35,467 nucleotides of DNA from Acidimicrobiia bacterium (GTDB taxonomy: Bacteria > Acidobacteriota > Vicinamibacteria > Vicinamibacterales > UBA2999). Every line of letters starts with the position of its first letter. The stretch's first letter is position 1. Of this stretch, positions 2,619 through 17,644 are shown in pieces. Below the pieces are notes generated by a model. It saw nothing but the letters and a program-made list of their open reading frames with translations. It was not told the origin of the DNA and ran no database searches. The stretch covers positions 1 through 35,467 of the forward strand of contig VFYY01000022.1 of the NCBI GenBank assembly GCA_016871375.1. Reading direction: 5' to 3'. The position numbers and the translations under genes were made by a program.

Positions 2619-2686
2619 CAATTCCCAACGCCCAAGTCCCAACTCCCAAGACGCTTTGGAAGTTGGGAGTTGGAAGTTGGGAGTTT
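2619..2686. repeat. Inverted heptad-repeat hairpin, cargo-less (element A)
   Basis: Left arm AATTCCCAACGCCCAAGTCCCAACTCCCAA, right arm TTGGAAGTTGGGAGTTGGAAGTTGGGAGTT; about 25/30 complementary positions by eye, 7-nt periodicity (TCCCAAC), short spacer; lies just after the stop codon (2689-2691) of the minus-strand DinB-fold gene. Confidence 0.85.
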
Positions 2687-2688
2687 CT

Positions 2689-13607: not shown

Positions 13608-14258
13608 TCGCACGCGCGTGAGCACGGCGGCCGCCGCCTCGCGGAACGCGGCGCTCCACTCGTGGCCGCCGTCGAAACTGCACCCGCTCACCGGCACGCC
13701 CATCTGGCGCAGCTGCGACAGGTCCGACATGAACTTCACTTCCGCGTAGGAAGCGTCACTGACGCCGCGGCCGAGCAGCACGGGCGGCAGCCTGGCCGCG
13801 GTGCCCGCGGCGACGTCCGGCGGCACGTCGGCGGCAAGCACGATCAGCGCCTGCGCCTCGTAGCGGGCGGCCGCGCGGTAGGCCATGGCGCCGCCCTGCG
13901 AGAACCCCGCAAAGACGAGCGGCCCTCCCACCGGATACCGGCGGCGCACGTCGTCCAGCACGCGGCCGGCGTAGTCCACGTTGTCGGCAATCGCGAGCTC
14001 GCGGTCCTCGCGCGTCATCCAGCTCGCCACGATGGTGTCCTGGCGCGTATAGAAGCGGTGCAGGCCCTGCACGGATACGATCAGCCAGTCGAGGGCGCCG
14101 GGAATCATCGCCAGGTCGTCGAGGTGGCCCGACGCCTCCTGGCCGTAGCCATGGAAGCCGACGAGGAGCGGCCAGGGCGGCGGTACGGCCGGCACGCGCG
14201 CGACATACCGCCCGTGGACGCGGGCTTCGACGGTGTGCACCACAGCAGGATCGGGCAT
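13596..14258 (-). CDS. Alpha/beta hydrolase (phospholipase/carboxylesterase-like)
   Basis: GFHGYGQEA, FAGFSQGGAMAYR nucleophile elbow, DGGHEW. Confidence 0.85.
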   Translation of the reverse strand: MPDPAVVHTVEARVHGRYVARVPAVPPPWPLLVGFHGYGQEASGHLDDLAMIPGALDWLIVSVQGLHRFYTRQDTIVASWMTREDRELAIADNVDYAGRVLDDVRRRYPVGGPLVFAGFSQGGAMAYRAAARYEAQALIVLAADVPPDVAAGTAARLPPVLLGRGVSDASYAEVKFMSDLSQLRQMGVPVSGCSFDGGHEWSAAFREAAAAVLTRVRSGP

Positions 14259-14259
14259 C

Positions 14260-14907
14260 GTGACCAATCTTAGTGTGACCAGTTACCCCGCCGCGCAGCC
14301 GCGCGGCGCGCTGTTGGTCTTCGCGCACGGCGCCGGCGCCGGACAGCGGCATCCGTTCATGGTCGCCGTGGCAAGCGGCCTCGCCGGGCGCGGCATCGAC
14401 GTCGTCACGTTCAACTTCCCGTACATGGCAGAGAAGCGGAAGGTGCCCGACAAGGCGCCGGTATTGGAGGCGGCGTTCCTGGAGGCCATCGCATCATCGA
14501 CGGGCGACGCATGCGTCGCCCCTACCGCGCAACCGCGACGTCTGTTCATCGGGGGCAAGTCCATGGGCGGCCGCATGGCGACGCACCTCGCCGCGCACGG
14601 CCTGGACGGGTTGCACGGTGTGATCGCGCTCGGCTATCCGCTGCACCCGCCGGGACGTCCCGATCAGCCGCGCACCGCGCACCTGCCGTCGATCGCCGTG
14701 CCCGTCCTCATCGTCCAGGGCGGACGCGACACCTTCGGCACGCCGTCAGAGCTGAAGCCGGTGATCGAGACCATGCGGGCGCCTGTCACGCTGCACGTCG
14801 TCGAAGGCGGCGACCACTCGCTCGCCGTGCGCGGGCGGAAGCCCGACGACACGCGGGCGCCAGTGCTGGATACAATCGCGGAATGGATGCTGGAAATTGG
14901 CGATTGA
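14260..14907 (+). CDS. Alpha/beta hydrolase (KANL3/Tex30-like dienelactone hydrolase superfamily)
   Basis: LVFAHGAGAGQRHPFM, FIGGKSMGGRMATHLA, GGDHSL. Contains an in-frame REP-derived segment GDACVAPT. Confidence 0.85.
   Translation: MTNLSVTSYPAAQPRGALLVFAHGAGAGQRHPFMVAVASGLAGRGIDVVTFNFPYMAEKRKVPDKAPVLEAAFLEAIASSTGDACVAPTAQPRRLFIGGKSMGGRMATHLAAHGLDGLHGVIALGYPLHPPGRPDQPRTAHLPSIAVPVLIVQGGRDTFGTPSELKPVIETMRAPVTLHVVEGGDHSLAVRGRKPDDTRAPVLDTIAEWMLEIGD
14502..14521. repeat. REP-like perfect palindrome, family 1, inside the alpha/beta hydrolase gene
   Basis: GGGCGACGCATGCGTCGCCC followed by CTAC; encodes GDACVAPT in a different frame from the other two coding copies. Confidence 0.9.
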
Positions 14908-14961
14908 CGATTGGAGATTGCAGAGTGTTGTCGATTGGTGATTTCCGATTGTGGTGATTTC
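14892..14961 (+). repeat. Heptad-repeat array B (left end of element 1)
   Basis: GAAATTG GCGATTG ACGATTG GAGATTG ... CGATTG GTGATTT CCGATTG; contains the hydrolase stop codon TGA (14905-14907). Confidence 0.85.
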
Positions 14962-14972
14962 ACAGTTCGCGG

Positions 14973-15332
14973 TCACCGACGCGAACGTGAGGCAGTGCGT
15001 CTCGAAGCCACGAAGATCGCGACCAGCTGATCGGCCTCGTCCAGCAGGCGAGTCACCTCTGGACCTGACGCCAGCTGTAGTCTGATCAACATTCCAAGCC
15101 ACATGTGGGACTCGTCGGCTTCCTCGATGACGAGTCCCAGCTTGGCGACGAATTCCGCTCGGGAGCGCGCGCGGCAGGTCGCGCGGTAGTTGGCAGCGAC
15201 GCCGGTCGCGGCCCGGCCGAGCTGATCGCGAATGTTTCGACCCTCGGGCGTCGGCGGCAGGCCTCGACACACGGTGACCACGTCGACGGCGAAAGTCTCG
15301 GCACGCCGTTGAAGCTCGCGCGGCGTCAGCAT
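14973..15332 (-). CDS. Four-helix-bundle protein (23S rRNA IVP / S23 / Avd-like family)
   Basis: 119 aa; IRDQLGRAATGVAANYRATCRARSRAEFVAKLGLVIEEADESHMWLGML...LLDEADQLVAIFVASRRTA matches the family layout. Confidence 0.85.
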   Translation of the reverse strand: MLTPRELQRRAETFAVDVVTVCRGLPPTPEGRNIRDQLGRAATGVAANYRATCRARSRAEFVAKLGLVIEEADESHMWLGMLIRLQLASGPEVTRLLDEADQLVAIFVASRRTASRSRR

Positions 15333-15432
15333 GCCGCCGAGTACAGCAGGCGGCGTGCCGGACGAGTGGCGCCTGTTTTCCGTAGGAAACGGAGGGTCTC
15401 TCCGTCAGACCGCTCGAAACCTGCACACTGTC

Positions 15433-15533
15433 TTCAATCGAAAGATCGCAAATTCTGCAATCTCAATCGGCAATCTCAATCGGCAATCTCAATCGGCGAT
15501 CTCAATCGGCAATCTTCAATCTCCAATCGTCAT
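15433..15533 (-). repeat. Heptad/13-mer repeat array C (right end of element 1, inverted relative to B)
   Basis: CAATCTCAATCGG repeated about 4.5x then CAATCTT CAATCTC CAATCGT; reverse complement shares TGACGATTGGAGATTG (16 nt) with array B. Confidence 0.88.
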
Positions 15534-16270
15534 TCCGTATACGGCTGGTGCAGGTGCACCGGGGCGCTCTTCGCGCGGACGCGCAGGTTGATCATCTCGA
15601 CGAAGATCGAGAAGCCCATCGCGAAGTAGATGTACCCCTTCGGGATGTGCTGGTCGAAGCCTTCGCCGATGAGCGACACGCCGATGAGCAGGAGGAAGGA
15701 GAGCGCCAGCATCTTCACCGTCGGGTGCCGTTCGACGAAGTCGCTGATCGTGGCGGCGGATACGAGCATCACACCCACGGCGACGATCACCGCCAGCACC
15801 ATCACCGACACGTCCTCGGCCATGCCGACCGCCGTGATGACCGAATCCAGCGAGAACACGATGTCCAGCAGCAGGATCTGGATGATCACGCCGGTGAACG
15901 ACGCGTGGACCTTCGCCGACGCGTGCCCTTCCTCGCCTTCCAGCTTGTCGTGAATCTCGTGCGTGCTCTTGGCGATGAGGAACAGGCCGCCGATGACGAG
16001 AATGAGGTCGCGGCCGGAGATCCCCTGCTCCGCCACCTCGAAGATCGGGGTGGTCAGCTGCATCACCCACGTAATCGACAGCAGCAGCAGGATGCGGATG
16101 ATCATCGCCAGCGACAGGCCGACCTTGCGCGCCCGCTCGCGCATGTCCTGCTTCAGCTTCCCGGCCAGGATCGAGATGAAGACGATGTTGTCGATGCCGA
16201 GGACGATCTCGAGCACGGTCAACGTGAGCAGGGCAATCCAGCCCTCCGCTGTCGTCGCCCACTCGAACAT
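15530..16270 (-). CDS. TerC/YgdQ family integral membrane protein
   Basis: 246 aa; LTLTVLEIVLGIDNIVFISILAGKL, DIVFSLDSVITAVGMA, multi-TM. Confidence 0.92.
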   Translation of the reverse strand: MFEWATTAEGWIALLTLTVLEIVLGIDNIVFISILAGKLKQDMRERARKVGLSLAMIIRILLLLSITWVMQLTTPIFEVAEQGISGRDLILVIGGLFLIAKSTHEIHDKLEGEEGHASAKVHASFTGVIIQILLLDIVFSLDSVITAVGMAEDVSVMVLAVIVAVGVMLVSAATISDFVERHPTVKMLALSFLLLIGVSLIGEGFDQHIPKGYIYFAMGFSIFVEMINLRVRAKSAPVHLHQPYTE

Positions 16271-16800: not shown

Positions 16801-17157
16801 ATGCCCACACTGACCGTTGAAGGCTTCACCACCGTCGATGCGCCGGACGGCAAGCGCCTCGTGCTGGCCATCGAGCAGGACGCCGGCGTCGACATCCTGC
16901 ACGCGTGCGGCGGCAACGCGCGCTGCACCACGTGCCGCGTGGAATTCGTGAGCGGCGAGCCGCAGGCGATGACGCAGGCCGAGAAGGGGAAACTGGAGGA
17001 GAAAGGGCTGACCGGCAGCCATATCCGGCTGTCGTGCCAGATCGTGTGCGATCGCGACATGACCGTCCGCGCGATCAGCCGCCTGGAGGGCAGCGGCCGG
17101 CCCGATCCCGGCAGGACGCCGGAGCCGACGATTCAGCCACCTCCGGTGTGGACCTAG
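16801..17157 (+). CDS. 2Fe-2S ferredoxin
   Basis: ACGGNARCTTCRV...LSCQ cysteine pattern of plant-type [2Fe-2S] ferredoxins. Confidence 0.92.
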   Translation: MPTLTVEGFTTVDAPDGKRLVLAIEQDAGVDILHACGGNARCTTCRVEFVSGEPQAMTQAEKGKLEEKGLTGSHIRLSCQIVCDRDMTVRAISRLEGSGRPDPGRTPEPTIQPPPVWT

Positions 17158-17159
17158 TC

Positions 17160-17192
17160 GATTTGCGATTTGTGATTTGTGATTTGCGATTG
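17160..17192 (+). repeat. Heptad-repeat array D (left end of element 2)
   Basis: GATTTGC GATTTGT GATTTGT GATTTGC GATTG, starting 2 nt after the ferredoxin stop codon. Confidence 0.9.
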
Positions 17193-17214
17193 GCGCGGGC
17201 CTTTCGGCCCGCGC
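17193..17214. terminator. Perfect 9-bp GC hairpin (GCGCGGGCC-TTTC-GGCCCGCGC)
   Basis: GAAA tetraloop on the minus strand; adjacent to array D; terminator-like but without a T tract. Confidence 0.5.
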
Positions 17215-17423
17215 TTCCTGAGGCGGCGACGGACGGTTTCGCGCGAACTGACGAAGATCCTCGTTAGTTCGTCCGCCTCTTTCCAGAGCGCGCGGCTCGC
17301 TGCCGCGGGCTGCACGATCTTGGCGTCGACGAGCAATTCAATCCAATAGGCGGCTTCGTCAGTTTCCTCGATCACCTCCGAGGAACGACTGCCGAATGTA
17401 CGCAAGAACTGCGTACCCGCCAC
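17198..17423 (-). pseudogene. Truncated four-helix-bundle (IVP/Avd-like) gene remnant
   Basis: Only the C-terminal half is recognisable (SSEVIEETDEAAYWIELLVDAKIV...LWKEADELTRIFVSSRETVRRR); N-terminal QLxRAA..NY..EF half absent. The formal ORF reads on through array D to a stop at 17154. Confidence 0.7.
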
Positions 17424-17445
17424 GGCGTCGAGTACGCAGTTTGTT

Positions 17446-17478
17446 CAATCGCAAATCACAAATCGCAAATCGCAAATG
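17446..17478 (-). repeat. Heptad-repeat array E (inverted relative to D)
   Basis: Reverse complement CATTTGC GATTTGC GATTTGT GATTTGC GATTG; 31/33 identical to array D. Confidence 0.9.
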
Positions 17479-17535
17479 GGCCGAGTCATGCCCTGCTGAA
17501 GAGCAGAATGCGCGCCGCGTGGATTTCTTAGGAAT

Positions 17536-17637
17536 TCCGAGGAACGACTACGGAACGTACGCACAAACTGCGTACCCAGCTCGTGGCCGAGTACGCAGTT
17601 TCTGCAATCACAAATCGCAAATCACAAATCACAAATG
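17536..17637 (-). repeat. Duplicated right-end module of element 2 (hairpin plus array F)
   Basis: 102-nt segment about 83% identical (by eye) to 17377-17478; both contain AACTGCGTAC-N15-GTACGCAGTT and a 33-nt heptad array. Confidence 0.85.
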
Positions 17638-17644
17638 CGAAGGC

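Follow-up and report, generated by a model that had tools for sequence, protein, structure and literature searches.

Inverted heptad arrays around S23 genes as the ends of a probable class of minimal mobile elements in bacteria, plasmids and phages

A short gene for a four-helix-bundle protein, located between two convergent host genes and enclosed by tandem repeats in opposite orientation, raises the question of whether gene and repeats form a single mobile unit and, if so, what could move it. The gene lies in the window, as we call here the whole stretch of 35,467 nucleotides that was analysed. In our view, the unit probably represents one member of a large class of mobile elements that are selfish and minimal, hereafter S23 elements. 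As proposed here, such an element would measure about 400-650 bp and would consist of one S23/TIGR02436 gene and two inverted arrays, each of about 4-5 element-specific units of the NNNNYAG type. The family appears to be very widespread in bacteria, plasmids and phages and, apparently, has gone unrecognised as a family.

The S23 gene of the window (14973..15332, minus strand; 119 aa) matched PF05635 with 46.5 bits (cut-off 33.8) and TIGR02436 with 69.4 bits (cut-off 24), and thus meets the requirement for family membership. It is the sole recognised gene between the arrays, where neither open reading frames nor profile searches revealed a transposase gene; Pfam gave PF05635 alone for it, and no HUH (Y1) transposase. 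The neighbours are an alpha/beta hydrolase gene (14233..14907, plus strand; PF20408) and the convergent gene of a TerC family membrane protein (15530..16270, minus strand; PF03741). On the hydrolase side stands array B (14891..14961, plus strand), an outer heptad array of the GATTG type that reads ATTGGCG ATTGACG ATTGGAG ATTGCAG and is degenerate thereafter; its first units encode the final codons of the hydrolase together with the TGA stop (14905..14907, plus strand). Upstream of the S23 gene, array C (15456..15532, minus strand; in the S23 sense TGACGATTGGAGATTGAAGATTGCCG...) carries the array B heptads inverted, and the TGA stop of terC (15530..15532, minus strand) forms its outer edge. Between the S23 start codon and array C there is a spacer (15333..15455, minus strand) with the motif GCAGAATTTGC at its array end, which was found upstream of several S23 genes in this bacterial order only. 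The 16-mer TGACGATTGGAGATTG constitutes the outer start of both arrays (14905 on the plus strand and 15532 on the minus strand), and its TGA serves as the hydrolase stop on one side and as the terC stop on the other, just as the initial annotation had read it. The same annotation had described both arrays as heptad repeats, which holds for array B; in array C, steps of 7 and 6 nt alternate, so that it is not a strict 7-mer array and a tandem-repeat program reports a 13-nt period.

The reading of this locus as an IVP/S23-like gene between inverted arrays was borne out by the profile matches and also by the pairing of the flanks. The best inverted pair (14902-14927 / 15510-15535) extends over 26 nt with 88% complementarity, and the S23 flanks had an inverted score of 20.0, a value attained by none of the 2438 random 360-bp slots of the window (mean 10.4, sd 1.7, max 17.0). 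The sequence GATTNNNGATTNNNGATT occurs in 11 copies in the window, versus 0.00 in shuffles. The S23 transcript can form a strong stem (RNA fold z -7.1 and -8.9), and a search of the window against Rfam gave no match. Measured against a 23S rRNA intervening sequence, the unit meets the structural criterion (an S23 ORF preceded by heptads, with inverted repeats at the termini) but not the criterion of location, since it is found between the hydrolase and terC genes.

The association of S23 genes with inverted arrays extends across phyla. The source genome presented eight PF05635 matches, and at seven of the eight S23 loci there were inverted short repeats around or beside the gene, with a unit private to each (for example CAGGAGG, GGCAGCC, CAGGCCT, the 9-mer GTGCCTAGG and CCCAACT); locus L006 has a single clear array, and L004 is truncated by the end of the contig. 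Of 40 relatives within the order, 26 have S23 genes, and when 34 loci were compared, the best inverted match of an upstream flank was usually its true downstream flank. With 514 windows as controls, 69 of the 80 S23 loci from named genomes of many phyla exceeded the 95th centile and 49 the 99th, and the same was true of 17 and 16, respectively, of the 23 viral contigs; two further sets, gathered once the method had been fixed, gave 23/28 and 23/27. Over 131 loci, the inverted score between upstream and downstream flanks averaged 22.7 for cognate pairs versus 9.6 for mismatched partners, the former mean being reached by 0 of 10,000 permutations, and the true partner ranked best among the 131 at 75 loci. 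At a few S23 loci (L051, L059, L062, L177-L179/L194) no inverted arrays were detectable.

In each array, a unit of 7 nt (sometimes 6, 8 or 9 nt) that differs from locus to locus is repeated about 4-5 times, and the matched core has a median of 4.4 units (interquartile range 3.8-5.2). Clear periodicity was observed at 108 loci, with period 7 in 94, period 8 in 12 and period 9 in 2; 9-nt units were found at L005 and L004 of the source genome, and a 6-nt unit at locus L325. Upstream of the gene, and read on the gene-sense strand, the units share the register NNNNYAG, whose last two positions are A in 78% and G in 86% of the 94 period-7 loci; the information of this register amounts to 2.65 bits, against 1.96 (max 2.13) for permuted units. 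Furthermore, G exceeds C on the gene-sense strand at 103 of 115 loci. The private unit tracks the sequence of the S23 protein (Mantel r=0.23 between identity of proteins and similarity of units, 0 of 2000 permutations), also over wide distances: GATTGAG is common to one betaproteobacterial and one Chitinophaga locus whose proteins are 67% identical. Common descent alone could be partly responsible for this correlation. A palindrome-like stretch, GCAG - AT-rich - CTGC, was seen between array and gene at six loci (L003, L005, L007, L041, L043, L063). The corresponding pattern GCAG[AT]3[CT]TGC was enriched before the S23 genes of this order (5/36 versus 0/128) and not in other phyla, and was discarded as a conserved internal motif.

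In close relatives, S23 elements were found present or absent at identical gene junctions. In six relatives, hydrolase and terC stand next to each other in convergent orientation with no S23 gene between them, and in one of the six (G002) the two coding regions abut; hence the empty junction that the initial annotation had proposed to look for does exist. At the same terC end, other relatives carry an inverted gene-less GATTG pair (L081) or CTACCAG units (L069), which indicates that this junction has been hit by such sequences more than once. It should be noted that the comparisons of filled and empty sites at base level refer to relatives of the window element and not to the window copy. With the phages and plasmids described below and the hydrolase-terC pair, the general criterion for a mobile element, i.e. 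that close relatives differ in having or lacking it at a given site, is met, and the earlier claim of a discrete mobile unit is supported.

Three phage contigs (L204/L205/L211) carry an element at the junction of the genes for head decoration and for the major capsid protein, a site that is empty in eight others (L206, L208-L210, L212, L238, L239, L268), where the junction has 3-8 nt and the capsid proteins are 92-98% identical to those of the filled relatives. The phage elements are 96-98% identical, and the adjoining 50-100 bp resemble different empty alleles; in addition, dS was 0.08-0.19 for the phage S23 gene, whereas the capsid gene beside it gave 0.50-1.92. This contrast in divergence between element and flanks means that the same junction was entered in different backgrounds, or that the element spread much faster than its flanks. 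A search with the phage S23 against the phage collection gave no match. Two other observations were made at this operon. The capsid gene of L238 contains a 134-nt insert (L238:2234-2367) with inverted ends CAGGGCGATTGC...GCGATTGCCCTG and an apparent direct repeat TTCACCGTG, which was considered and is not a heptad element. In the viral contig L207, upstream of position 2001, the place of the head decoration gene directly before the capsid gene is taken by an ORF that resembles a reverse transcriptase and has a YLDD motif.

Cyanobacterial plasmids offered five sites with filled and empty alleles. At site 1, in Trichormus plasmid C (L203), the empty allele is AAAAAGTAATTAACAAAT and the filled one consists of AAAAAGTAAT, the element and GTAATTAACAAAT, with flanks 97% identical and a 5-nt duplication (GTAAT). 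Elsewhere, site 1 holds a decayed copy in Nostoc (contig C052) and a gene-less hairpin in Brasilonema, and relatives of its element are present at other plasmid sites (L412, L413, L416). Site 3 contains an unrelated S23 with GGGGAAA units. The plasmid insertions are located at stop/start junctions of packed operons or inside the last codons of a gene. Two different S23 elements at neighbouring junctions of homologous Nostoc plasmids (L420:1089-1594 and L413:2003-2423) suggest that packed plasmid operons are insertion hot spots. A target-site duplication, another check put forward at the outset, was clear only at site 1: among the five plasmid sites and one phage site no constant length was found, as one plasmid junction showed 5 nt, another 3 nt, and the rest small deletions or an unresolved junction. 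We infer that such an inconstant length speaks against a classical transposase and for variable joining by the host.

Gene-less heptad hairpins are abundant in the source genome and concentrated in genomes that bear S23. The window itself contains a second, decayed element (17154..17482), in which inverted GATTTGY arrays (17154-17199, plus strand; 17444-17482, minus strand) enclose an S23 remnant (about 17226-17396, minus strand), as well as a third GATTTGY array (17601..17642, minus strand). Of the families in the genome, GATTTGY is the one for which most copies were found, and it makes up most of the GATTNNNGATTNNNGATT hits listed, 225 in all. A gene-less CCCAACT hairpin (2619..2688) consists of two inverted arrays without spacer and shares its unit with the arrays that surround S23 locus L008; it is situated at the edge of the ORF 787-2649. 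In 435 kb of the source genome we counted 54 arrays of period 7, versus 2-7 for periods 5, 8, 10, 11 and 13; period 6 was raised too, which we attribute to codon structure. These 54 arrays belong to a few families, with 19 inverted pairs, most of which are hairpins some 80 bp in length.

The density of heptad arrays was 9.4 per 100 kb in S23-positive samples, with 23 inverted pairs; if the source genome is left out, the figures are 7.0 and 8. In S23-negative relatives the density was 1.35 per 100 kb, with no inverted pair. These figures come from small genome samples and not from whole genomes; the density is uneven among S23-positive genomes, with one array or none in the 40-60 kb samples of four of them (G015, G020, G026, G029), and a few S23-free genomes retain some arrays. 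Only 1 of 369 gammaproteobacterial genomes contained (GGGAATC)3, and GGGAATC units flank the S23 gene of that genome; within the genus of this genome, two S23-bearing species gave nine hits each, and six S23-free species gave 0, 0, 5, 2, 0 and 0. The reversed (GGGAATC)3, employed as control pattern, had six hits in one genome (G200), which are CTAAGGG repeats and probably another heptad family. The refutation conditions set with the original proposal were constant synteny of arrays and gene, no empty sites, no other copies, and no enrichment near IVP genes; on each of these points the outcome was the opposite.

A different explanation is that the arrays are control sites: S23 would bind the array or hairpin of its own 5' leader and regulate itself, and the cassette would be moved only passively, by ordinary homologous recombination and by horizontal transfer. 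The position of the arrays near the S23 start, their conserved orientation, the strong hairpin possible in the transcript and the lack of a catalytic domain in S23 are all compatible with this idea. It does not account for the gene-less array pairs of the same families scattered through S23-bearing genomes, nor for phage elements gained at one site in different backgrounds without flanking sequence, nor for the presence of related elements in unrelated plasmid sites whose empty alleles are clean; we regard it as unlikely, and moreover regulation and mobility are compatible with each other. S23 might also be a mere passenger, with some other function, between ends that a separate, unlinked host transposase or integrase mobilises. 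Many mobile elements indeed rely on enzymes in trans, and S23 has no catalytic residues. However, the unit varies between elements and tracks the S23 protein, so that a single common enzyme would need many specificities; besides, none of the examined sites has any gene other than S23 in the unit, and array density depends on the presence of S23. We therefore give this possibility only about one chance in ten.

The initial annotation had also pointed to Avd and diversity-generating retroelements, and S23 could act like Avd together with a reverse transcriptase, the element spreading via cDNA. Avd, the accessory protein of these retroelements, and S23 have the same fold and belong to the same four-helix-bundle family. 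Nevertheless, no RVT_1 match was obtained in seven genomes with 3-12 S23 genes each (G001, G006, G015, G024, G026, G029, G038), including near-complete and complete ones with 5-12 S23 genes, two of them complete single contigs; none of the genes scanned around the window element, nor those beside the S23 loci of the source genome, was recognised as a reverse transcriptase, and the single RVT_1 match of the source genome is on a different contig (C122). Neither a template nor a variable repeat was recognised near S23 loci. A reverse transcriptase is thus excluded as a requirement of S23 elements, and this mechanism, largely refuted, remains very improbable. It is hardly conceivable, finally, that the arrays are simple-sequence repeats grown by slippage and lie near S23 by chance or composition. 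Repeat copy number does vary, as in Coxiella strains with 2 or 3 heptads (PMC4990558), yet more than 100 loci have inverted partners with the same private unit, a situation refuted as chance by the permutation tests; slippage would explain neither the shared unit register nor the filled and empty alleles, nor the excess of period 7 over the other periods in the source genome.

If S23 elements are indeed mobile in their own right, the protein has to be considered. To our knowledge, S23 is devoid of any recognised domain of a nuclease, recombinase or polymerase. Where dN/dS was measurable, values of 0.02-0.13 indicate purifying selection on the gene, and five chains are present in each of the two solved structures, 2gsc and 2rld. 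The Xanthomonas S23 structure is a homopentamer (PMC4990558). We propose that the pentamer would be the cognate heptad-recognition factor and would bind the units of its own element, an inference for which there are no binding data; from a pentamer and about 4-5 units, roughly one heptad may correspond to each subunit. S23 might then pair or bridge both ends, and replication or repair enzymes of the host would copy or paste the element, although no movement data support this step. Gene-less hairpins that share the unit may be moved in trans by S23, which is plausible and has not been shown. This mobilisation in trans and the retroelement link are the two points on which the initial annotation, otherwise essentially right, is not borne out. 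Gene boundaries, at stop or start codons, would be the targets, presumably because an insertion there does little harm. In transcripts, both arrays could pair into a stem that RNase III might cut out, as in Coxiella, and this excision would make insertions inside operons and rRNA genes tolerable.

Whether all this amounts to an enzyme-less transposable class, in which a ring protein recognises 7-nt units and steers host replication or repair, and which would explain intervening sequences, orphan heptads and many 'four helix bundle proteins', is a question on which we are evenly divided. Should it be so, a mobile element without a catalytic domain of its own would be mechanistically new. The S23/'four helix bundle' family would gain a concrete role and a partner sequence, and the rRNA intervening sequences known since about 1990, the cyanobacterial and Xanthomonas heptads and the over-representation of heptads in bacteria would become a single testable system. 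Furthermore, the private protein-repeat pairs would constitute a natural library of sequence-specific nucleic-acid recognition. As a caution for annotation, we infer that heptad-encoded C-terminal peptides are read-through of element ends.

Among the known systems, MITEs and IS elements resemble S23 elements in their inverted ends, gene-less derivatives and filled and empty sites; S23 elements differ from them in having no transposase, an inconstant target duplication and short tandem units as ends. RAYT genes with REP/BIME sequences work alike, as a gene between cognate palindromic repeats is accompanied by many gene-less hairpins. However, RAYTs are HUH (Y1) nucleases acting on REP palindromes, whereas S23 is a small non-catalytic four-helix bundle with tandem heptads. 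Avd systems possess a reverse transcriptase, template and variable repeats, none of which was recognised at S23 loci. We know of no described type of element whose ends are short tandem arrays in inverted orientation and whose protein is a ring without catalytic function, and for this reason we consider the class new. In the open-access literature, apart from the Coxiella heptads, no paper was found that joins S23 genes to heptad arrays.

G-rich heptads have been described in Xanthomonas (GGGAATC) and Nostoc (GGGGAYT) (Rehm 2015, PMC4692102), and the cyanobacterial STRR repeats can be grouped with them as a close known system. Two Xanthomonas species have 186 and 183 GGGAATC arrays, mostly of four units, with 70-75 inverted pairs; the arrays stand at different genes in related species and have no protein partner (PMC4692102). 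Like S23 arrays, the Xanthomonas and Nostoc heptads mostly consist of four 7-nt units and are intergenic, those of Xanthomonas often in close inverted pairs; they were described as orphan quadruplex-forming repeats without an associated protein. The adjacency of S23 genes and GGGAATC arrays in two genomes of one genus is a new link, for which we have no data from Xanthomonas itself. XCC0516 (2gsc) is the S23 protein of one GGGAATC-bearing species, Xanthomonas campestris, and no close match to it was found in the class-wide draw of gammaproteobacterial genomes (best, 65% identity).

The nearest known relatives of S23 elements are the 23S rRNA intervening sequences of Coxiella, Leptospira and Brucella, which likewise have one gene of the S23 family in about 430 nt with inverted-repeat ends. 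In Coxiella, three tandem heptads GACAGAT stand just upstream of the S23 start, their number differs between strains (2 or 3 heptads), and RNase III excises the intervening sequence (PMC4990558). In sequence, GACAGAT fits the register NNNNYAG when read as ATGACAG, and these heptads strengthen the link to intervening sequences that had been suggested for the window. The differences are that intervening sequences sit inside 23S rRNA helices, whereas the S23 elements studied here stand at protein-gene boundaries, form many families with private units and have gene-less copies; in addition, the Coxiella S23 copy is decaying (PMC4990558), in contrast to the intact genes under purifying selection observed here. 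The intervening sequences, together with the orphan heptads of Xanthomonas and Nostoc, appear to be further representatives of S23 elements, and the 23S rRNA intervening sequences would be the known tip of this class.
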